Positions 20,989-30,807 of a stretch of DNA of 64,000 bases are shown here, piece after piece. The DNA comes from Lutimonas halocynthiae (GTDB taxonomy: Bacteria > Bacteroidota > Bacteroidia > Flavobacteriales > Flavobacteriaceae). The position numbers and the translations under genes are program-made. Each line of letters begins with the position of its first letter. Positions within the stretch are counted from its first letter, which is position 1. The notes under the pieces were generated by a model. The model was not told the DNA's origin and searched no databases. It saw only the letters and a list, made by a program, of their open reading frames with translations. The stretch spans positions 930,001 through 994,000 of the forward strand of contig NZ_JAUFQO010000004.1 in the NCBI RefSeq assembly GCF_030409835.1, written 5' to 3'.

Positions 20989-22833
20989 TCAAATTCCCTC
21001 AATAAATTTTAAAAAAACTTTTTTATGAAGTTCGAGATTGAGGCTTGGAGAAAGTGATGCCCGGACAATATAATCTTTGTCACCTTCTTTGGTTGTTCCT
21101 TGGGTAGATGTTGCAGGAATTGTCCAATAAGTACCTTTTAACTGGCCATAGCTCACACAGAACTTACTCTCATTGGGGATTTCAGTGATCATTAAATTGA
21201 TTAATTTAAGATTTAGCACTCTTTTATAAGCTTCCCTTTCTTCATCGTTATCCCCTTTTGTGGGAAGGTCTAATGAAAACACAGATGGGGTAAATCCTTG
21301 TCTTGCTAATTTTTCCGAAACAAAATTGATTTTTGCTTTTGGTAAGGTCTCATGGATATAGTTTACAAATTCACGTGTGTTTTGATATGCATCATTTATT
21401 CTTTGATTCATAGAAGGCAACATTTTGGCCAGTATTTCCATTTGAAGATCTGTAGCCTCATTATCACAAAGTTTTAGATGCAAGTCTATGTAGCGCATCA
21501 AAGCTTCTGTTTTTTTATTTCCTACACAATATCCAGCATTACATAGCCCGCCACTGGGGAATTTTGATCCACTGGCATATGAAATAGTCCTAACTGTTGA
21601 GAGTATTTCATTTTCACCCAGAAAATGGACATTAGGACAAAATGTTTGGTCTAAAATAAAAACAGGTTCTATCGCCCTTTCACCTTTGCTTGTTTTACGC
21701 GCTTTACTTAAAACAGCCTTTAAATTTATAAGGTCAGGAACTTCTACTCTTGGGTTTGTTGGAATTTCAGCGATAATGTATGGGATAGCATCTTCCTCAG
21801 CAATTTTATCTAAAACCAGGTCAATGCTTTGATTCATATCATTTCCATCATCAACTGGTAAATCCACCACTTCTACATTAGCAATGCAAGCAGCCACACG
21901 TCTTGCCTGATCATTTGTTCCGCCATAACAATTTGGAGGAACAATAAATTTGATAGCTTTTCCTTTATGCTTTTCCAGGGCATCGTGAATGAGCCCCATC
22001 ATAATAGCATATTGAATAGATAGTCCACTAGAACCAACTAGTGACTTTATACTTGTACCGGTAATAGCTGCAATTGAATTTAAGACCTCTGATTTGTTCG
22101 TCTCGATATGACTATTCTTGTATTCAAAAGTAGACTCCCCTGTTAAAACCTTCAAGGTAGTAAGACAATTAGCCGGGGTCATAGCTATAGACTCTCTTCT
22201 TCTAACATGCTGAATTTCTGAAATATAAGACTCATTCTGTTCACCATTTACTACTAAAACACTTCCAAGATCCGGATCAATATTTATAAAAAAGTCAATA
22301 TTTGGGTTGAGGTCTACATTGTAAATAGCATCTTGATTTGAAATGAAAATAGTACTGCCCTTGAACTCAGCAATAGCATCTGCCTTATCAACATGCTTTA
22401 CATCAAATTCATAAGCGTAAATATGTTGCAGTATCTCAACATCAAAAAAATCTGGTAATGCACCAGAATAAATGATTTGTGTTCTTTTTTTATCAAATAA
22501 ATTCTTCCTTAGAATAGCCAAAACAGGCATTGCCTGCGATGAAAAACTGATTACATTATTTGATTTTAGCTGGTGCAACTTAGCAATTCCCCATTCCAGA
22601 ACACAAGATAATGGATGACCCAATCGAATATAGTCGTAGGCTGTGGGTAATTCATTTAGCGCTAATGATTCAGAATTATTGGTATTAAATAAGATTTCAA
22701 ATTGTTCTAAAAACTGAGTTTTAGCCAGTTTTTCATCATAAATATCAAGTCGATGCGTTGTGAGATGCAACCAGCCTGTTGGTATATTTCTCAACACCTC
22801 TTTTATAAAATTTATGACTTTATTGTCTTCCAT
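20989..22833 (-). CDS. PLP-dependent enzyme, Cys/Met metabolism family, with long N-terminal extension
   Basis: 614 aa, against about 380-430 for cystathionine gamma-synthase relatives. The fold-type I core lies at about 240-614: GSSGLSIQYAIMMGLIH, NCYGGTNDQARR, EIPTNPRVEVPDL, Asp395 (VFILDQT) for the PLP ring nitrogen and Lys424 in SYASGSKFPSGG as the Schiff-base lysine. Residues 1-235 are an extra domain with no motif I recognise. The reaction could be a gamma- or beta-elimination or replacement on a sulfur amino acid, but that is inference. It lies 108 bp downstream of the DUF4345 gene on the same strand, and both face away from the radical SAM operon at 23626. Confidence 0.75.
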   Translation of the reverse strand: MEDNKVINFIKEVLRNIPTGWLHLTTHRLDIYDEKLAKTQFLEQFEILFNTNNSESLALNELPTAYDYIRLGHPLSCVLEWGIAKLHQLKSNNVISFSSQAMPVLAILRKNLFDKKRTQIIYSGALPDFFDVEILQHIYAYEFDVKHVDKADAIAEFKGSTIFISNQDAIYNVDLNPNIDFFINIDPDLGSVLVVNGEQNESYISEIQHVRRRESIAMTPANCLTTLKVLTGESTFEYKNSHIETNKSEVLNSIAAITGTSIKSLVGSSGLSIQYAIMMGLIHDALEKHKGKAIKFIVPPNCYGGTNDQARRVAACIANVEVVDLPVDDGNDMNQSIDLVLDKIAEEDAIPYIIAEIPTNPRVEVPDLINLKAVLSKARKTSKGERAIEPVFILDQTFCPNVHFLGENEILSTVRTISYASGSKFPSGGLCNAGYCVGNKKTEALMRYIDLHLKLCDNEATDLQMEILAKMLPSMNQRINDAYQNTREFVNYIHETLPKAKINFVSEKLARQGFTPSVFSLDLPTKGDNDEEREAYKRVLNLKLINLMITEIPNESKFCVSYGQLKGTYWTIPATSTQGTTKEGDKDYIVRASLSPSLNLELHKKVFLKFIEGI

Positions 22834-23601: not shown

Positions 23602-23626
23602 TAAACGATAACTAAACGTGCGTTTA
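23602..23626. promoter_or_regulatory. TAAACG repeats overlapping the XRE-cupin start, candidate autoregulatory operator
   Basis: TAAACG occurs at 23602-23607 and 23613-23618, and its reverse complement CGTTTA at 23621-23626. The last two form an inverted repeat with a 2-bp spacer that overlaps the first base of the regulator's ATG. A GTTTAAAC octamer overlaps the first copy. This is where an autorepressing XRE protein would be expected to bind. Confidence 0.5.
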
Positions 23627-24183
23627 TGGATCAAATGGGGAGAAGAATAAAGAGGAAAAGAGAGATTCTTGGTTTTCAAATCAAAGAATTGTCTAATAAA
23701 ATTGGGGTTACTTCCAGTTTAATTTCTCAAATCGAAAGAGGGAAAGCCTTCCCGTCAATCGTTACCCTAAAAAAAATTGCTGAAGCCTTAAATACCAAAG
23801 TCGGTGACTTGATTGGTGAAAATGAAAATCTTGTTCAACATCCACTTCTTAAATCAAACGAAAGACGATTTGTAAAAGAAAACAACAACGGAACCAGTTT
23901 GCATCTGCTGTCTTATCACGATCCGTCAAAACAAATCGAACCATATATCATTCAATTTAGTAAAAACTCAAATTCTGAAGGGATAATGACTAGCAATTTT
24001 CCTGGTCAGGAGTTTTGCTATATACTCAATGGCAGTTTTGAAGCAAGCATAAACGGTCAAGAATACAGAATAAGCGAAGGTGACGGGTTTTATTTTAATT
24101 CAAGTAAACCGCATCTTTTTAAAAATATCAGCGCTAATAAAGCTGAAATACTGTGGATTATTACTCCGTACAATAATTTATAA
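23626..24183 (+). CDS. XRE-family regulator with C-terminal cupin domain
   Basis: 185 aa. Residues about 8-62 form a helix-turn-helix of the XRE type (IKELSNKIGVTSSLISQIERGKAFPSIVTLKKIAEALN). Residues about 105-180 form a small cupin barrel (FPGQEFCYILNGSFEASINGQEYRISEGDGFYFNSSKPHLF). This architecture is common in regulators of amino-acid or polyamine catabolism, where the cupin is thought to sense a small ligand. It is the first gene of the + strand operon, 11 bp before the radical SAM gene. Met4 is an alternative start. Confidence 0.88.
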   Translation: MDQMGRRIKRKREILGFQIKELSNKIGVTSSLISQIERGKAFPSIVTLKKIAEALNTKVGDLIGENENLVQHPLLKSNERRFVKENNNGTSLHLLSYHDPSKQIEPYIIQFSKNSNSEGIMTSNFPGQEFCYILNGSFEASINGQEYRISEGDGFYFNSSKPHLFKNISANKAEILWIITPYNNL

Positions 24184-24194
24184 AACTATTAAAG

Positions 24195-25799
24195 ATGAAA
24201 AGGATGAACTCTATCTCAGACTCAATTTCAGGTGTGTCAGAAGCTTCTCGACCTGCCCAATATGTAAAAATACAGTCTTCTTCTGTTAAGGAATTAATGG
24301 ATATTCATGACTTAAGCGATGAGGCAAGAAGTATTATAGAAAGTGAAAATTTGCTCCCAACCTCATTGCTTTCGAGATTGCACAATAACTTCCCTCAGCA
24401 CTCGATGCTGATCCCAAAGTCGAAAGCCATGTTTTCAGATGCTAAGAGCAATTACTCAGGATTATCAGGATTCAAAATGGTCTGTGACATACTTGAAGAA
24501 AACGGTATCCGGCTTAGCCATATGAAAGAGCGTGAATTTTTTCTCGAAGTGTACGCTTTTTTGGCAACCAAGCATATTTTGAGCACCATCGACTGGGATA
24601 ATTATCAGACTGACCAGATATTTCAGCTTATTTTCCCGCAACCGGGAATGATCGATCCAAAAGTGGTTGCCGAATATATCAATATCACTGACGAAGTTGA
24701 AAGAAAGCAAATGGTGGTAAAATATCGGGATAAGACCAATCCGCATGATGGAAAACAGTTGCTTAACCGTCCTTCATTTTATACTGAAGATGGCGCTTTT
24801 GAAGCATTAGACGGTGCCCAACACAAGTACCCCCAGGTATTATTATTGTTTGACAAAACCACACAAAGCTGCTATGCCTATTGTACCTATTGTTTCCGCC
24901 ATGCCCAAGTAAGAGGTGACGAAGACATGTTTGTTCAGGATAGTACAAGTCAGGTGCATGACTACCTCAGAAAGCATAAAGAAATTACCGATATTCTGAT
25001 TACTGGCGGCGATGCCGGTTATATGCCAACGCATAGGTTAAATGAATACCTGGGCGCCGTAATGGAAGATCCTGAGTTGATGCATATCAAAACGGTTAGA
25101 ATCGCTTCCCGCGCCCTGACCTACCAACCAGAAATAGTCCTTAATGACAAATACAAAGAGACCCTTGAATTGTTCAAAAAATTAATTGATCATGGAATTC
25201 AAGTGTTGTGGATGGGTCATTTTTCAACACCCAAAGAATTGCTCAATATACATACCATAGCGGCTATAAGAAGGTTACGTGCATACGGTATCAATATACG
25301 AAGCCAAAGCCCAATGATGAATCATATTAGTTTGTTTACAGATGATAAGGGTAAAGTAGACGTTGACAGATCTGCTAAGAACTGGATCGATCTGGCTCAC
25401 GTTCTTATGATGCTCGGAATGAACTTTCACTCAATATATTGCGCAAGACCTACTGGTGAACATGATTACTTTACAGCTCCATTAGCCGATATGAACAGAA
25501 TTTTTAGCAAAATTTACAGAAGTTTACCCTCTATCGGAAGACCTTCAAGATATATCTCGATGACCTCATCGGCCGGCAAAACTTCATTGCTCGGAGAAGT
25601 TGAGGTGAATGGTAAGAAAGCTTTTGCTTTGAAATTCAACGAAGCCAGAAATATGGAATGGCTTGATAAAGTGTACCTGGCTGAATTTGACGAAAAAGAA
25701 AACACAATAGAAAGATTAAAGCCTTTTGGTGGTGGCAATTATTTCTATCAAGACGAACTGAAAAAAATTGAAAGAGATCTTGAAAAAATATATGAATAG
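24195..25799 (+). CDS. KamA-family radical SAM protein, putative amino acid 2,3-aminomutase
   Basis: 534 aa; lysine 2,3-aminomutases are usually about 350-470. The radical SAM cluster motif is Cys226-x3-Cys230-x2-Cys233 (SCYAYCTYCFRHAQ), followed by ILITGGDAGYM, the SAM-binding GGD. The order of later segments (VRIASRALTYQP, GHFSTPKEL, INIRSQSPMMN, YCARPTGEHDYF) follows KamA. The expected PLP motif PGGGGK is not present; VNGKK at 471-475 lies in the corresponding place, with Lys474 or 475 as candidate PLP lysine. Where KamA has CD (an Asp contacting lysine's side-chain amine, as I recall), this protein has C416-Ala-Arg. About 200 residues precede the radical SAM core. It probably shifts an amino group from C2 to C3 of a substrate other than lysine. 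Confidence 0.8.
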   Translation: MKRMNSISDSISGVSEASRPAQYVKIQSSSVKELMDIHDLSDEARSIIESENLLPTSLLSRLHNNFPQHSMLIPKSKAMFSDAKSNYSGLSGFKMVCDILEENGIRLSHMKEREFFLEVYAFLATKHILSTIDWDNYQTDQIFQLIFPQPGMIDPKVVAEYINITDEVERKQMVVKYRDKTNPHDGKQLLNRPSFYTEDGAFEALDGAQHKYPQVLLLFDKTTQSCYAYCTYCFRHAQVRGDEDMFVQDSTSQVHDYLRKHKEITDILITGGDAGYMPTHRLNEYLGAVMEDPELMHIKTVRIASRALTYQPEIVLNDKYKETLELFKKLIDHGIQVLWMGHFSTPKELLNIHTIAAIRRLRAYGINIRSQSPMMNHISLFTDDKGKVDVDRSAKNWIDLAHVLMMLGMNFHSIYCARPTGEHDYFTAPLADMNRIFSKIYRSLPSIGRPSRYISMTSSAGKTSLLGEVEVNGKKAFALKFNEARNMEWLDKVYLAEFDEKENTIERLKPFGGGNYFYQDELKKIERDLEKIYE

Positions 25800-25906
25800 G
25801 AAAAAGCAACTTATACGTTTTTTTAGAAATAACTGACTGAGTTGCATCTCATATGTTCCACATCAGTATAAATAATTTATAATTATAGATTTAATATTTA
25901 AATGTT

Positions 25907-26620
25907 ATGATCAATAAGATTGTTAATTCACGCGCAGAAGCGGTTCAAGGTGTTTTTGACGGCGCAACCATTATGATTGGTGGATTTGGAGAGGCGGGGA
26001 GCCCTATTGAGCTCATCCATGCATTGATAGATCATGGTGCAAAGAACCTAACCGTAGTAAGCAATAATACCGGTAGCGGGTATGTGGGTCTTGCAGCCCT
26101 CATCGCAAATAAGCAGGTCAAAAAAATGATCTGTTCATTTCCGAGAACAGCTAATTCTACTGTTTTCGCTGAATTGTACAGTGCCGGAGAAATTGAACTT
26201 GAATTGGTTCCTCAGGGAACGCTTGCCGAAAGAATCAGATCAGGCGGTGCCGGTATTCCCGCTTTTTACACGCCTGCATCGGTCAACACACCCCTTGCCG
26301 ATGGCAAAGAATCACGCATGTTTAATGGAAAACAATACGTTCTGGAATACGGAATAAAAGCCGACTTTTCATTGGTGAAATGCGAAAGAGCTGACAGGTA
26401 CGGCAATTTAGTTTATCATGCTACTGCGAGAAACTTCAACCCGATAATGTGCGCTGCTGCACAAGAAACCATTGTCCAGGCTAAGTCAATTGTAGATGCC
26501 GGTCAAATTGACCCCGAGACTGTGATTACGCCTGGCATATATGTCAATAAAGTAATAGAAATTAACCAACCCGTCAACGAATCTGAACTGGTGGCGGATA
26601 AAAAAAGTTACCCATGGTAG
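25907..26620 (+). CDS. pcaI: 3-oxoacid (3-oxoadipate-like) CoA-transferase, subunit A
   Basis: 237 aa. MINKIVNSRAEAVQGVFDG and IMIGGFGEAGSPIELI give the glycine-rich CoA-binding region of the alpha subunit. MICSFPRTANSTVF, LELVPQGTLAERIRSGGAGIPAFYTP and ITPGIYVNKVIEI follow PcaI closely, from memory of that family. It moves CoA from succinyl-CoA to a beta-keto acid together with the next gene. The stop overlaps the start of subunit B by 7 nt. Because no protocatechuate or catechol genes are present, the beta-keto acid is expected to come from the operon's own aminotransferase. AtoD/ScoA-type specificity for acetoacetate remains possible. Confidence 0.88.
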   Translation: MINKIVNSRAEAVQGVFDGATIMIGGFGEAGSPIELIHALIDHGAKNLTVVSNNTGSGYVGLAALIANKQVKKMICSFPRTANSTVFAELYSAGEIELELVPQGTLAERIRSGGAGIPAFYTPASVNTPLADGKESRMFNGKQYVLEYGIKADFSLVKCERADRYGNLVYHATARNFNPIMCAAAQETIVQAKSIVDAGQIDPETVITPGIYVNKVIEINQPVNESELVADKKSYPW

Positions 26621-27285
26621 AAACAGCTAAAAATATTGGTTGGAGCCGTGCTGAAATGGCAAAAAAAACAGCCTTAGACATCCCTGACGGATCTTATGTC
26701 AACCTTGGAATTGGAATTCCTGAAATGGTAGCAGACTTTGTGCCTGAAGGAAGAGAGCTGATCTATCAAACTGAAAACGGGTTGCTCGGAATGGGAAAGG
26801 TTCCAGAAAAAGAGAATGAGGATCGTGAACTGGTTAATGCCGGCAAAAAATGTGTCACGACCATCCCGGGAGCAAGCTACTTTCATCACGCTGATAGTTT
26901 TGCCATGATCAGAGGCGGACACATTGACATTTGTGTTTTGGGAGCCATGCAAGTTTCCAAAGATGGAGATTTGGCCAACTGGTCAACCGGTGCAAAAAAT
27001 GCAATTCCTGCAGTTGGAGGAGCTATGGATCTGGTTGCCGGAGTAAAAAGAATATTTGTGATTACCCAGCATGTTACGAAACATGGTGATCCCAAAATTA
27101 TCGAGAAATGCACTTTTCCTCTTACTGGAAAACAAGTAGTTGAGCGCATCTATACCAACCTTGCCGTTATCGATGTAAAAGACAATGGATTGTTTGTTAG
27201 AGAACTAGGACCAGGTGTAGATTTTGACTACCTGCAAAAAAGAACAGGAACAAAATTGAACTTATATTCAGAAACAATGGCTTAA
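26614..27285 (+). CDS. pcaJ: 3-oxoacid (3-oxoadipate-like) CoA-transferase, subunit B
   Basis: 223 aa. The active-site Glu54 lies in YQTENGLLGMG; it forms the covalent glutamyl-CoA intermediate in this family. LDIPDGSYVNLGIGIP, CVTTIPGASYFHHADSFAMIRGG, DLANWSTGAKNAIPAVGGAMD and CTFPLTGKQVVERIYT are the conserved beta-subunit segments, closest by memory to PcaJ. It is translated with an overlapping start inside the end of subunit A and followed 6 bp later by the aminotransferase. It works as a cytosolic heteromer with the upstream subunit. Confidence 0.9.
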   Translation: MVETAKNIGWSRAEMAKKTALDIPDGSYVNLGIGIPEMVADFVPEGRELIYQTENGLLGMGKVPEKENEDRELVNAGKKCVTTIPGASYFHHADSFAMIRGGHIDICVLGAMQVSKDGDLANWSTGAKNAIPAVGGAMDLVAGVKRIFVITQHVTKHGDPKIIEKCTFPLTGKQVVERIYTNLAVIDVKDNGLFVRELGPGVDFDYLQKRTGTKLNLYSETMA

Positions 27286-27291
27286 AACTCT

Positions 27292-28650
27292 ATGATTATG
27301 AAGTTACAAACTCAAGATCAAAAATACAATTGCGACACAAGTAAAATGATATTTGAACGTGCCCTTAAAGTACTTCCAGGCGGTGTAAGCCGTAATACTA
27401 TTTATCGAGCCCCTCACCCCTATTATGCATCAAATGCGCATGGTAGTTATATCAGGGATATCAATGGCGTAGAACGTCTGGATTTTGCAAACAATATGGC
27501 CTCTTTAATACATGGCCATTCTTATGCCCCTATCATCAATGCAGTTGCTGAACAGATGAAAAAAGGAACAGCATTCACCATGGGCACAGAAGCCGAGGTT
27601 GCTTTTGCTGAACTCCTGATCAACCGATCTCCCGGTTTTGAAAAACTACGGTTTATGAATTCGGGAACAGAAGCTGTGATGACGATGATTAAAGCTTCAA
27701 GAGCTTATACAGGAAAACCAAAGATCGCCAAGGCAGAAGGTGCCTATCACGGCACATACGATTATGCTGAAATCAGCCAAACATCAAATCCAGGAAATTG
27801 GGGTGACATCAATAAGCCAAATTCGGTACCTGTGGTAAAAGGCACTCCCCAAGGAATACTTGACGATGTGATCATTTATCCTTTTAATGATATTGAAAGA
27901 ACCATCAAGTTATTAGATCAGAATGCCGATCAAATCGCTTGCGTAATTATAGATCCTGTTCCGCATCGAGTGGGTCTTTTTCCTGCAACCAGTCAGTTTA
28001 TTGAGGCAATCTATAATTGGACAAGGAAAAATAATGCGCTTATGGTATTCGACGAGGTGGTTACATTTCGGGTCAATTTTTCAGGAGCACAACACGACTA
28101 TATCCACAAGCCTGATTTGACCGCTCTGGGTAAAATTATTGGCGGCGGATTTCCTTCCGGAGCCCTGGCGGGAAAATTTGAAATCATGGATGTTATGGAT
28201 CCCAGACAAACTTTTTTAAGGCACCCGCAATCAGGAACCTTTTCTGCAAATCCTATATCCACAACAGCAGGTAGAATTGCCATGGAAATGTTTGACGAAC
28301 AAGCTGTTTTGAATTTAAATTCACTTACAATGACCGCCCGAAAGCAAATTGAAGAAGCTATAAAAATTGCGGATGTACCTGTGAGCATAACCGGTGCAGG
28401 CTCCATGTTTAGAATCCATTTACAAGAGAAGCCTCCGATGTATTATCGAGAAGCTTATCAATCAAAAGAAGCAAAAATAATCGTAAACGAATTGATTGAT
28501 TACCTCTTCCAAACAGAAAATATAATCATGATCAATACTTGCTCCTGTATGTTGGCCACAACTTTAACCCAAAATAATGTTGATCAATTATCAGAAGCAC
28601 TATTGAACGGATTTAAACTTCTTAAGCCCAAAATTGAACAATTGAATTAA
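27292..28650 (+). CDS. Class III aminotransferase (glutamate-1-semialdehyde-aminomutase-like), putative beta-amino acid transaminase
   Basis: 452 aa. PLP Lys281 lies in LGKIIGGGFPSGALAG, Asp254 in MVFDEVVTFR, and the cofactor phosphate site in FMNSGTEAV. The overall sequence resembles GSA aminomutases, but the opening turn reads PGGVSRNTIY with Arg34. In beta-phenylalanine transaminases of the same branch an Arg just after this turn handles the substrate carboxylate, so a beta-amino acid substrate is plausible. Heme biosynthesis is unlikely given the neighbours. It is 6 bp after the CoA-transferase and 11 bp before the thiolase, so coupled function is expected: beta-amino acid to beta-keto acid. 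Met3 is an alternative start. Confidence 0.82.
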   Translation: MIMKLQTQDQKYNCDTSKMIFERALKVLPGGVSRNTIYRAPHPYYASNAHGSYIRDINGVERLDFANNMASLIHGHSYAPIINAVAEQMKKGTAFTMGTEAEVAFAELLINRSPGFEKLRFMNSGTEAVMTMIKASRAYTGKPKIAKAEGAYHGTYDYAEISQTSNPGNWGDINKPNSVPVVKGTPQGILDDVIIYPFNDIERTIKLLDQNADQIACVIIDPVPHRVGLFPATSQFIEAIYNWTRKNNALMVFDEVVTFRVNFSGAQHDYIHKPDLTALGKIIGGGFPSGALAGKFEIMDVMDPRQTFLRHPQSGTFSANPISTTAGRIAMEMFDEQAVLNLNSLTMTARKQIEEAIKIADVPVSITGAGSMFRIHLQEKPPMYYREAYQSKEAKIIVNELIDYLFQTENIIMINTCSCMLATTLTQNNVDQLSEALLNGFKLLKPKIEQLN

Positions 28651-28661
28651 TATATAAGACC

Positions 28662-29864
28662 ATGAGAGATGTATTTATTTGTGATGCCATTAGAACGCCA
28701 GTGGGTAAATATGGTGGCGCACTTTCATCAGTGAGAACCGATGACTTAGCGGCGATTCCGTTAAAAGCCTTAATGGATAGAAATTCAGCTATTGACTGGA
28801 CTGCTATTGATGATATTGTTATGGGCTGCGCTAATCAGGCTGGAGAAGACAACAGAAATGTTGCCAGAATGGCTTCATTACTTGCGGGGTTTTCAGAAAC
28901 TGTACCAGGTTCAACCATAAACAGATTGTGTGGTTCTGGTATGGATGCCATTGGAATAGCAGCCAGAGCAATTAAATCTGGAGAAACTGAAATGATGATT
29001 GCAGGAGGCGTAGAAAGCATGTCTCGATCTCCATTTGTTACCGATAAAGCAACGAAGCCATTTTCCAGAGAAATCAAAACTTACGATACCACCATAGGCT
29101 GGCGGTTTGTAAACAAGAAACTGGATAAAATGTACGGTACTGAAGGCATGATTCAAACAGCTCAAAATATTGCGGATGATTTCAATATAAGCCGAGCTGA
29201 TCAAGATGCATTTTCACAAAAAAGTCAGGAAAAAGCAAATCAGGCCCAGCAAAATGGTTCACTTGCCCGAGAAATCATACCAGTAACAGTCTCTAGTGGT
29301 AAAAAAGATACGTTTGAAGTCTCCAAAGACGAACACCCACGTTTAACTTCTCTAAACAAGTTAGCCAGCTTAAGGTCAATAACCGGTGAAAACGGAAGCA
29401 TTACTGCTGGTAATGCCTCAGGAGTAAATGATGGAGCCGCTGCTTTATTGATCGCTTCAGCGGATGCAGTAAAAAAATACAATTTAAAGCCCAAAGTGAA
29501 GATCCTGGGACTTACAGCGGTAGGCGTACTTCCGCGTATCATGGGAATGGGGCCCGTTCCTGCAACACAAAAGTTGTTGAAAAAATTAGGACTGAATTTG
29601 AAAGACCTGGATCTTATAGAGCTCAATGAAGCTTTTGCTGCCCAGTCATTGGCCTGTATCCGTGAACTAGGTTTGAAAGATGATGACCCTAGAATCAATC
29701 CTTTAGGAGGTGCCATTGCATTGGGGCATCCTTTGGGAATGAGTGGAGCCAGAATTGTAAGCAGTGCCTACTACCAAATGGTGAATTCAGATGCAAAAAG
29801 AGCGCTGTGCACCATGTGTATCGGTGTTGGGCAGGGTATTGCAATCGTACTGGAAAAAGTATAA
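28662..29864 (+). CDS. pcaF: Thiolase, 3-oxoadipyl-CoA thiolase-like
   Basis: 400 aa. Catalytic Cys90 (NRLCGSGMDA), NEAF at 322-325, His356 (GHPLGMSG) and Cys386 (CTMCIGVGQG) are all present. The opening MRDVFICDAIRTP, NQAGEDNRNVARMA and the DTTIGWRFVN insertion are features I associate with PcaF rather than biosynthetic acetoacetyl-CoA thiolases. It should cleave a 3-oxoacyl-CoA with CoA to acetyl-CoA plus a shortened acyl-CoA, which is succinyl-CoA if the substrate is 3-oxoadipyl-CoA. It is the last enzyme of the operon's catabolic logic. Confidence 0.92.
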   Translation: MRDVFICDAIRTPVGKYGGALSSVRTDDLAAIPLKALMDRNSAIDWTAIDDIVMGCANQAGEDNRNVARMASLLAGFSETVPGSTINRLCGSGMDAIGIAARAIKSGETEMMIAGGVESMSRSPFVTDKATKPFSREIKTYDTTIGWRFVNKKLDKMYGTEGMIQTAQNIADDFNISRADQDAFSQKSQEKANQAQQNGSLAREIIPVTVSSGKKDTFEVSKDEHPRLTSLNKLASLRSITGENGSITAGNASGVNDGAAALLIASADAVKKYNLKPKVKILGLTAVGVLPRIMGMGPVPATQKLLKKLGLNLKDLDLIELNEAFAAQSLACIRELGLKDDDPRINPLGGAIALGHPLGMSGARIVSSAYYQMVNSDAKRALCTMCIGVGQGIAIVLEKV

Positions 29865-29958
29865 ATCAAAGTAAAAATCAATGAAGATTTCAGTTCTAAG
29901 AAATGATGATTGAATCTGTAAAAAATGTTTAATATTTCAAGTAATAGGATCAAAAATT

Positions 29959-30807
29959 ATGAATAAATCAGAAAATGATTCCATATCAATTTATGTTGTT
30001 TCCGGTGGTAAAGGGGTAACTGGGCATACCATAGTTCAAACCTTAATCATTCAATATCCAGAAAATAGTTTGAATGTTAAGTTAATTCCTGATGTCGTTA
30101 CAGAAAAAAAGGTTCTTGATGTAATTAAAAAGGTAAAGGATACCAATGGAATCCTTACGCATACAATGGTAAATTCTGATTTACGCACTTTCTTGATCGA
30201 GGAATGTAAAAAGCAAAATATAAAACAGGCCGATCTTATGGGAGGTCTTGCAGATATAATAGAAAATGATTTTGGATTACAATCTGTTAATAGCCCGGGG
30301 CTTTATCATAAAATTAATGCCCAATATTATAAGAGAATTGAAGCTATAGAATATACACTCAATCACGATGACGGACTTAATGCACAGAATCTGCATAAGG
30401 CAGACATTGTTGTCACAGGTGTTTCGAGATGCGGAAAAACACCATTAAGCGTATATATGGCAATGTTTGGATGGAAGGTAGCAAATGTGCCACTTATAGA
30501 AGGTATTGATCCTCCAAAAGAGTTGTTTGAAATCGATAAGAATCGCGTTTTTGGCTTGAATATTAGCTTAAGTCATTTAGTTGTCCAGCGACAGAAACGA
30601 TGGAAAAATTTTGGAAATTTAACTAACAACAATTACGTTGATTCTAAAGTTGTTGGTAAAGAACTTCAGTATGCCAATTTTCTATTTAAAAGAGGCGGAT
30701 TTACAAAAATAAATATTTCTAATAAGGCCATTGAATCAACCGCAAATGAAATACTCGGCCTTCTTTTTGAAAGATTTGACAAAGAGAAACACCATAATTT
30801 GGATTGA
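29959..30807 (+). CDS. Kinase/pyrophosphorylase family protein (DUF299, PPDK/PEP synthase regulator-like)
   Basis: 282 aa, typical length. A P-loop-like VTGVSRCGKTPLSVY spans about 152-166, with Lys160, and is followed by KVANVPLIEGIDPP, the conserved tail of the DUF299 family. The N-terminal YVVSGGKGVTGHTIVQTL also fits. Known members phosphorylate and dephosphorylate pyruvate phosphate dikinase or PEP synthase on Thr, switching gluconeogenic flux. Neither target enzyme is in the window. It lies 94 bp after the thiolase on the same strand, so it may be cotranscribed and tie acetyl-CoA/succinyl-CoA production to gluconeogenesis; this is inference. Confidence 0.85.
   Translation: MNKSENDSISIYVVSGGKGVTGHTIVQTLIIQYPENSLNVKLIPDVVTEKKVLDVIKKVKDTNGILTHTMVNSDLRTFLIEECKKQNIKQADLMGGLADIIENDFGLQSVNSPGLYHKINAQYYKRIEAIEYTLNHDDGLNAQNLHKADIVVTGVSRCGKTPLSVYMAMFGWKVANVPLIEGIDPPKELFEIDKNRVFGLNISLSHLVVQRQKRWKNFGNLTNNNYVDSKVVGKELQYANFLFKRGGFTKINISNKAIESTANEILGLLFERFDKEKHHNLD

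Follow-up and report, generated by a model that had tools for sequence, protein, structure and literature searches.

Clostridial lysine fermentation (KamA, KamDE, Kdd, Kce and Kal) begins with an aminomutase, uses a CoA-transferase and yields acetyl-CoA, while the lower β-ketoadipate pathway uses a CoA-transferase (PcaIJ) and a thiolase (PcaF) to give succinyl-CoA and acetyl-CoA. Both are among the closest described counterparts of an operon in the flavobacterium Lutimonas halocynthiae, located in a stretch of 64,000 nucleotides (positions 930,001 to 994,000 of contig NZ_JAUFQO010000004.1; hereafter the window) of a 3.99 Mb genome that is 99.9% complete. Seven forward-strand open reading frames (ORFs) form a compact array at 23626–30807 of the window, with intergenic gaps of 11, 107, −7, 6, 11 and 94 bp; recomputed coordinates reproduce the ORFs, gene order and spacing given in an earlier reading of the DNA letters alone (the sequence-only reading; Table 1). 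Like its clostridial counterpart, the operon has an aminomutase-type enzyme, here related to KamA, and a CoA-transferase, but it encodes a transaminase and a 3-oxoadipyl-CoA thiolase where clostridia have a second mutase, a dehydrogenase and a cleavage enzyme, and its proposed substrate is 2-aminoadipate. It shares the CoA-transferase and thiolase with the lower β-ketoadipate pathway, whereas 3-oxoadipate would here derive from an amino acid. We propose, with a probability of roughly three in four, that the operon serves to degrade L-2-aminoadipate via 3-oxoadipate to succinyl-CoA and acetyl-CoA.

In the proposed route, the upper steps of lysine degradation (LKR/saccharopine dehydrogenase or lysine dehydrogenase, then 2-aminoadipate-semialdehyde dehydrogenase, AASADH) would deliver L-2-aminoadipate, and the enzyme of the radical S-adenosylmethionine (SAM) and pyridoxal phosphate (PLP) type would shift its amino group from C2 to C3, giving 3-aminoadipate. 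The class III aminotransferase would convert this to 3-oxoadipate, the CoA-transferase, with succinyl-CoA as the likely donor, would form 3-oxoadipyl-CoA, and the thiolase would split the latter into succinyl-CoA and acetyl-CoA. Upper steps are shared with the saccharopine/2-oxoadipate/glutaryl-CoA route, but the operon route would leave it at 2-aminoadipate, so that 2-oxoadipate and both known exits, glutaryl-CoA dehydrogenase (GcdH) and the 2-oxoadipate dioxygenase HglS, would be bypassed. We infer each reaction, the CoA donor and the direction from the observed gene content, order, conservation, neighbours, residue replacement and co-occurrence. The progression from α-amino acid to β-amino acid, β-keto acid and β-ketoacyl-CoA put forward in the sequence-only reading fits what was tested. 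The operon combines known enzyme classes in a new way and probably includes a new aminomutase specificity. Somewhat less firmly than the route itself, we consider it likely that this is a new lysine/2-aminoadipate pathway, present in several phyla, that proceeds by radical amino-group migration and 3-oxoadipyl-CoA, has a charge-reversed lysine pocket and, from 2-aminoadipate onwards, would run without oxygen or an external electron acceptor, in contrast to the GcdH and HglS exits that occur alongside it. No published description of an aminomutase route from 2-aminoadipate to 3-oxoadipate was found among open-licence papers; the routes in the available part of PMC8706239 are engineered or in silico.

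A scan with the window radical SAM protein returned 63 loci, 61 of which are of the operon type; the remaining two (L061 and L062), 35% identical and of another type, were excluded from operon counts. Genome-wide tests cover 49 carrier genomes, namely those of 47 of the 61 loci (two of which sit in G048 and G146) together with the host, G048, G062 and G146, leaving out 14 loci. The radical SAM protein itself has no Pfam match at E ≤ 0.001 and reaches the cutoff of none of the six NCBIfam models that it matched, the best being TIGR00238 for the KamA family (79.6 bits against a cutoff of 199.2). Its sole match by sequence in the PDB at E ≤ 0.001 is lysine 2,3-aminomutase (LAM; 2a5h, E 2.4e-12, residues 204–377). 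An AlphaFold2 model (pLDDT 81.7, pTM 0.85) also placed 2a5h first in Foldseek (E 5.7e-14, TM-score 0.52 over the query, root-mean-square deviation 9.3), and comparing its profile with that of seven proteins of the LAM type, of which five exceed the TIGR03820 cutoff, gave 99% probability (E 4.3e-18). Judged by sequence and predicted fold, the protein is a distant relative of LAM (KamA/AblA), of the same radical SAM and PLP type and with the same CX3CX2C motif, carboxylate-binding arginine and PLP lysine; it differs in its length of 534 aa, in a long N-terminal part and in the replacement of the pocket acids by R and S/T. Identity as the EF-P β-lysylation enzyme EpmB or as a plain LAM, which the sequence-only reading had raised against itself, was rejected on scores under the respective cutoffs (TIGR03821, 52.7 against 369.3 bits; TIGR03820, 67.6 against 525.4 bits).

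The pocket was compared in 28 operon enzymes, from the window and 27 of the 61 loci (L043 was left out for an overlong ORF start). Cluster cysteines C226/C230/C233, R235 and the PLP lysine K462 are invariant in all 28, in each of which R418 occupies the place of LAM Asp293 and a serine or threonine at 455 that of Asp330, with a register that agrees between two alignments. We take Asp293 and Asp330 of LAM to be the acidic pair holding the lysine side-chain amine, Arg134 its carboxylate-binding residue and Lys337 its PLP lysine. Lysine and 2-aminoadipate are equal in chain length and differ in ending in an amine or a carboxylate, so an exchange of aspartate for arginine suits aminoadipate. The available passages of PMC9105233 do not give the LAM pocket residues. 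A LAM pathway, in which β-lysine would pass through 6-amino-3-oxohexanoate to 4-aminobutyryl-CoA and acetyl-CoA, has in its favour that LAM is the nearest solved relative by both sequence and fold, but with both acidic lysine-pocket residues replaced in 28 of 28 enzymes, a score below the cutoff of the LAM model and a true LAM also carried by 6 of 50 genomes searched, it is very improbable. The pocket arginine argues for an acidic side chain and not for aminoadipate alone; by its charge, glutamate would fit too.

Among the downstream enzymes, the thiolase passes the pcaF equivalog cutoff and matches a β-ketoadipyl-CoA thiolase in the PDB (Table 1). Of 23 operon thiolases (the window and 22 loci, with L035 left out for an overlong ORF start), all 23 match NF006551 at E ≤ 1e-179, a value near the cutoff, and all but one also match TIGR02430 at that level (22 of 23). 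Both CoA-transferase subunits reach the cutoffs of their models (TIGR02429 for A, TIGR02428 for B), which assigns them to the 3-oxoacid type. The aminotransferase has its nearest solved relatives in an unnamed enzyme of class III, in ForI and in glutamate-semialdehyde aminomutases, and it scores below the cutoff of the glutamate-1-semialdehyde aminomutase model TIGR00713. An earlier suggestion that this branch acts on β-amino acids stands in part: β-transaminases are among the relatives, but further down than ForI and the aminomutases.

Families of the PcaIJ/PcaF kind would also suit a CoA-transferase and thiolase for aromatic catabolism, by the β-ketoadipate or phenylacetate pathway, with the other genes as bystanders. 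However, these genes hold a near-invariant place relative to KamA and the aminotransferase, and the intradiol dioxygenase family PF00775 was not found in 47 of the 49 carriers, the host included, in a comparison that did not take in phenylacetate genes; this explanation is extremely unlikely. PF00775 matches were obtained in two carriers (G153 and G179) and in the non-carrier G025. The sequence-only reading had allowed for a complete β-ketoadipate pathway elsewhere in the genome, and the host yielded no PF00775 match at E ≤ 1e-8, the other β-ketoadipate and phenylacetate genes lying outside that search. A remnant of an aromatic pathway was set aside on the absence of PF00775 in the host and the conserved cassette order.

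That order was followed across the 61 loci, with gene presence determined by tblastn and each neighbour step counted only in loci with room for the next gene. The step from KamA to CoA-transferase A is kept in 58 of 59 judgeable loci, from subunit A to subunit B in 55 of 55, from subunit B to the aminotransferase in 53 of 53, and from the aminotransferase to the thiolase in 44 of 50. Conservation of gene order in other genomes, proposed earlier as a check, is thereby observed, and the order KamA–CoA-transferase A–CoA-transferase B–aminotransferase–thiolase is conserved far beyond chance. By name, the loci come from Bacteroidota groups, Cloacimonadota, Acidobacteria, Planctomycetota, Sumerlaeota and alphaproteobacterial genera or families, with the binning of metagenome-assembled genomes (MAGs) unchecked. 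The XRE-cupin regulator lies upstream of KamA in 16 of 55 judgeable loci. The DUF299 gene, counted as an operon member in the sequence-only reading, was found in none of the 61, although only 35 of these are at least 15 kb long and some end in or soon after the operon; it is probably not part of the module. In the window it lies 94 bp past the operon, and it may link the operon to phosphoenolpyruvate (PEP) metabolism or be a chance neighbour. Close-type KamA is rare in the host's own group, occurring in 4 of 149 genomes of its family at ≥67% identity and in 2 of 296 genomes of its phylum at ≥60% identity, the host included in both, and it was not found in the same-genus genome of the sample (G025). 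Such rarity among the host's relatives suggests possible horizontal spread.

The genes beside the cassette supply the strongest evidence for the substrate. L-piperidine-6-carboxylate (2-aminoadipate-semialdehyde) dehydrogenase, the AASADH of the upper lysine steps, adjoins it in L053, L059 and L039 (802.8, 807 and 818.4 bits against a cutoff of 730), and relatives of the L053 protein with 58–100% identity occur in 12 of the 61 loci; saccharopine-dehydrogenase domains were identified in L053 and L015, the latter with an LKR-like gene. Draconibacterium and Maribellus loci have a saccharopine-dehydrogenase gene divergent upstream, and AASADH with a second saccharopine-dehydrogenase-like gene downstream (L022 ends before this downstream part); both genera presumably belong to Prolixibacteraceae, a family in which another locus (L059) has AASADH and an LKR-like gene downstream of the cassette. 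KamA of the Cloacimonadota locus (L015) is preceded on its own strand by saccharopine-dehydrogenase and LKR-like genes, and in Anderseniella (L039) an Lrp-type regulator, AASADH and a gene of the saccharopine-dehydrogenase fold follow the cassette. The last is lysine-dehydrogenase-like, its nearest solved relative being 3abi (E 1.6e-15), which we take to be L-lysine 6-dehydrogenase. All of these arrangements would provide 2-aminoadipate or a precursor, and the presence of lysine-to-aminoadipate genes beside the cassette in Prolixibacteraceae, Cloacimonadota and an alphaproteobacterium favours 2-aminoadipate as the substrate.

These neighbours also bear on two other explanations. Glutamate could be converted via β-glutamate and 3-oxoglutarate to acetyl-CoA and malonyl-CoA, given that the pocket arginine suits any acidic side chain and that the glutamate 2,3-aminomutase model (TIGR04368) does match; yet it does so at 53.1 bits, far under its cutoff of 650, the recognisable neighbours are lysine-to-aminoadipate genes, and the thiolases stand at about the cutoff level for 3-oxoadipyl-CoA thiolase, which leaves glutamate an unlikely substrate. 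Of the three amino acids named in the sequence-only reading (2-aminoadipate, glutamate and lysine), 2-aminoadipate agrees best with the gene neighbours, the charge-swapped pocket residue and the thiolase assignment. As a matter of general knowledge, the steps are reversible in principle and saccharopine-type genes can serve lysine synthesis, so succinyl-CoA and acetyl-CoA might instead be built into 2-aminoadipate, from which lysine or a secondary product would follow; thiolase condensation is, however, thermodynamically poor (again general knowledge) and the linked AASADH is an oxidative enzyme, making the biosynthetic direction extremely improbable.

The host has an LKR-like gene (G000:C1:566314-567504; PDB match to α-aminoadipic semialdehyde synthase, E 1.7e-37), an AASADH gene (G000:C1:513186-514610; 825 bits against a cutoff of 730) and a GcdH gene (G000:C1:367750-368925, L091; PDB match E 9.1e-128), while saccharopine dehydrogenase gave no tblastn match in the window and five further host stretches, no genome-wide search having been made. 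Among the carriers, 36 of 49 have an LKR match, 36 of 49 AASADH (E ≤ 1e-150) and 42 of 49 either. AASADH is also present in 153 of 296 genomes of an even phylum sample, and its presence alone is a weak association with the cassette. GcdH, searched with the host protein at E ≤ 1e-90, a setting that more distant GcdH could escape, occurs in 221 of those 296 genomes, in 17 of 49 carriers and in a further carrier (G263). It is absent from 22 of 36 AASADH-positive carriers, including the genome of the complete Draconibacterium orientale record (G192), compared with 1 of 151 AASADH-positive non-carriers (G310). With G263 added, a Fisher test gave p 7e-18, a value that ignores shared ancestry and comes from a carrier set including MAGs and other phyla.

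Several observations weigh against a 2-aminoadipate route. The CoA-transferase models do not distinguish enzymes for 3-oxoadipate (PcaIJ) from those for acetoacetate (ScoAB), and the nearest solved relatives are succinyl-CoA:3-ketoacid transferases. An R418-type arginine also occurs in a widespread KamA-like sister group of 450 aa (L061, L062, L080 and L081), so this residue is not specific to aminoadipate. A Rhodobacteraceae locus (L048) has KamA and the aminotransferase with neither CoA-transferase nor thiolase in the fetched stretch. Thirteen of the 49 carriers have no LKR match, 13 no AASADH match and seven neither, and the Cloacimonadota carrier yielded no AASADH match. All tested carriers assigned to Flavobacteriales by kinship or record name (11 of 11, host included) keep GcdH; because the host does so, the operon route is there additional to the GcdH route, and two lower 2-aminoadipate routes may coexist, perhaps used with and without oxygen. 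The HglS family (PF07063), which was not found in the host, is present in 20 of the 22 AASADH-positive carriers that lack GcdH and in none of the 14 that have it, leaving two of the 22 (G164 and G195) without either. In three GcdH-lacking carriers (G174, G176 and G190; L103–L105), a short HglS-like gene has a gene for a YdiJ-like D-2-hydroxyglutarate dehydrogenase nearby, an arrangement that suggests a putative route from 2-oxoadipate to 2-oxoglutarate in operon carriers, and GcdH-lacking carriers may thus send 2-aminoadipate via 2-oxoadipate and 2-hydroxyglutarate. The HglS family in most GcdH-lacking carriers means that missing GcdH does not by itself show the operon to be the outlet; that point is weak, and it lowered our confidence in the 2-aminoadipate route from 0.8 to 0.74.

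The HglS route (2-oxoadipate dioxygenase, then 2-hydroxyglutarate dehydrogenase) resembles the operon route in using 2-aminoadipate without GcdH, but goes via 2-oxoadipate with a dioxygenase (by its Pfam name), and its genes are not in the cassette. PF07063 matches occur in 29 of 80 genomes, comprising 22 of the 49 carriers and 7 of the 31 other genomes; most are short proteins, of about 266–310 aa in those examined, scoring about 100–114 bits when scanned alone (cutoff 25), and one of them matched a 'putative hydrolase' in the PDB (E 9.8e-88) ahead of hydroxyglutarate synthase (E 3.6e-40). In L103:1221-6166, L104:3631-7959 and L105:3896-7952 the HglS-family gene is near one for a 972–973-aa protein, which in L104 has flavin adenine dinucleotide and iron–sulfur domains and is YdiJ-like; the name comes from a model match in L104 of 627.9 bits, below the cutoff of 1350. 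Two non-carrier genomes of the family (L100:6952-10013 and L101:5561-8667) have a short HglS-family gene with a second AASADH copy directly after it and a divergently oriented Lrp-type regulator gene on the other side. This group, whose domains were checked in L100, is a candidate for a compact lysine cluster. Carriers might then handle 2-aminoadipate by GcdH or an HglS-like route while the operon degrades another amino acid and sits in lysine clusters by chance, as the host GcdH, the PF07063 genes of 20 of the 22 AASADH-positive GcdH-lacking carriers and the short HglS-like gene directly before the second AASADH in the non-carriers L100 and L101 would allow. Against this, three distinct neighbour arrangements tie the cassette to aminoadipate-forming genes, and most PF07063 matches are short proteins (about 270–310 aa) of putative function; we regard it as quite unlikely. 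Conjecturally, HglS, oxygen-needing by name, and the operon, which should not need oxygen, could serve different conditions.

If the 2-aminoadipate route is correct, bacteria have one more way to degrade lysine, branching off at 2-aminoadipate and merging into the last steps of the β-ketoadipate pathway, which would allow an oxygen-independent, redox-balanced use of lysine carbon. It would also provide an aminomutase whose new substrate has a visible structural basis, supply a gene signature by which to annotate a radical enzyme that escapes Pfam, and could explain genomes with two lower lysine routes.

Table 1. Features of the operon and its upstream region, in window coordinates.
Feature	Position	Strand	Evidence
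Probable operator TTAAATTGTATTTAA, palindrome TTAAATnnnATTTAA	23563-23577	+	Starts 63 bp before the regulator start codon
XRE-cupin regulator, presumed local operon regulator	23626-24183	+	HTH_3 and Cupin_2 (Pfam); PuuR model 71.6 bits, below cutoff 211
KamA-like radical SAM/PLP aminomutase, proposed 2-aminoadipate 2,3-aminomutase	24195-25799	+	534 aa; C226, C230, C233, R235, R418, K462 invariant 28/28; top fold match 2a5h
3-Oxoacid CoA-transferase subunit A, proposed 3-oxoadipate CoA-transferase	25907-26620	+	CoA_trans; TIGR02429 341 bits, cutoff 128.5
3-Oxoacid CoA-transferase subunit B	26614-27285	+	CoA_trans; TIGR02428 301 bits, cutoff 243.55
Class III aminotransferase, proposed 3-aminoadipate transaminase	27292-28650	+	Aminotran_3 PF00202; hemL model (TIGR00713) 313.9 bits, below cutoff 527.3
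3-Oxoadipyl-CoA thiolase, PcaF type	28662-29864	+	Thiolase_N/C; TIGR02430 643.6 bits, cutoff 597; PDB 6pca E 1.9e-160
DUF299/PPDK-PEPS regulatory kinase-pyrophosphorylase, neighbour, probably outside the module	29959-30807	+	Kinase-PPPase PF03618; 0/61 related loci

The palindrome TTAAATnnnATTTAA upstream of the regulator gene has a single match in the window, against 0.10 expected. Among 18 sequences with an XRE-cupin gene, the 150 bp before that gene contain it exactly in 9 (0.04 expected from Markov-resampled sequence) and, when one mismatch is allowed, in 15 (0.69 expected), counts that are uncorrected for relatedness of the sequences. Upstream of KamA in loci that lack the regulator, it was exact in 0 of 40 and within one mismatch in 2 of 40. 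From this distribution, the palindrome is the probable operator of the XRE-cupin regulator. A Bacteroidota promoter pattern gave one match, away from the operon, against 5.06 expected; σ70 and terminator scans (30 against 23.4 expected, s.d. 5.5, and 9 against 6.1, s.d. 2.4) were not used. Further upstream, at 20989–22833, the window encodes a 614-aa protein with a weak PLP-enzyme match of the Cys/Met-metabolism family (E 9.9e-8, residues 231–428).

In the Rhodobacteraceae locus (L048:6590-9570), KamA adjoins the aminotransferase, and a thiamine pyrophosphate enzyme, a second class III aminotransferase and a betaine-aldehyde-dehydrogenase-like gene lie nearby. The sister group of about 450 aa, common in Bacteroidota, gives a profile match at E 6.7e-69 and has the same arginine, but its proteins are without the N-terminal part, and no operon partners were found in L061, which carries such a gene; the L062 stretch is too short for this comparison. 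An acidic amino acid is a plausible substrate for this group, judging from the arginine. Its members include L061:7905-9254, L080, L081 and L098:8003-9352, and it occurs in 26 of 296 phylum genomes at 34–38% identity. In Draconibacterium-type loci (L098:8003-12089 and L099:6265-10295), genes for the 450-aa KamA-like protein and a short HglS-family protein lie about 2 kb apart with two genes between them, and the corresponding matches are similarly close in G165 and G186.

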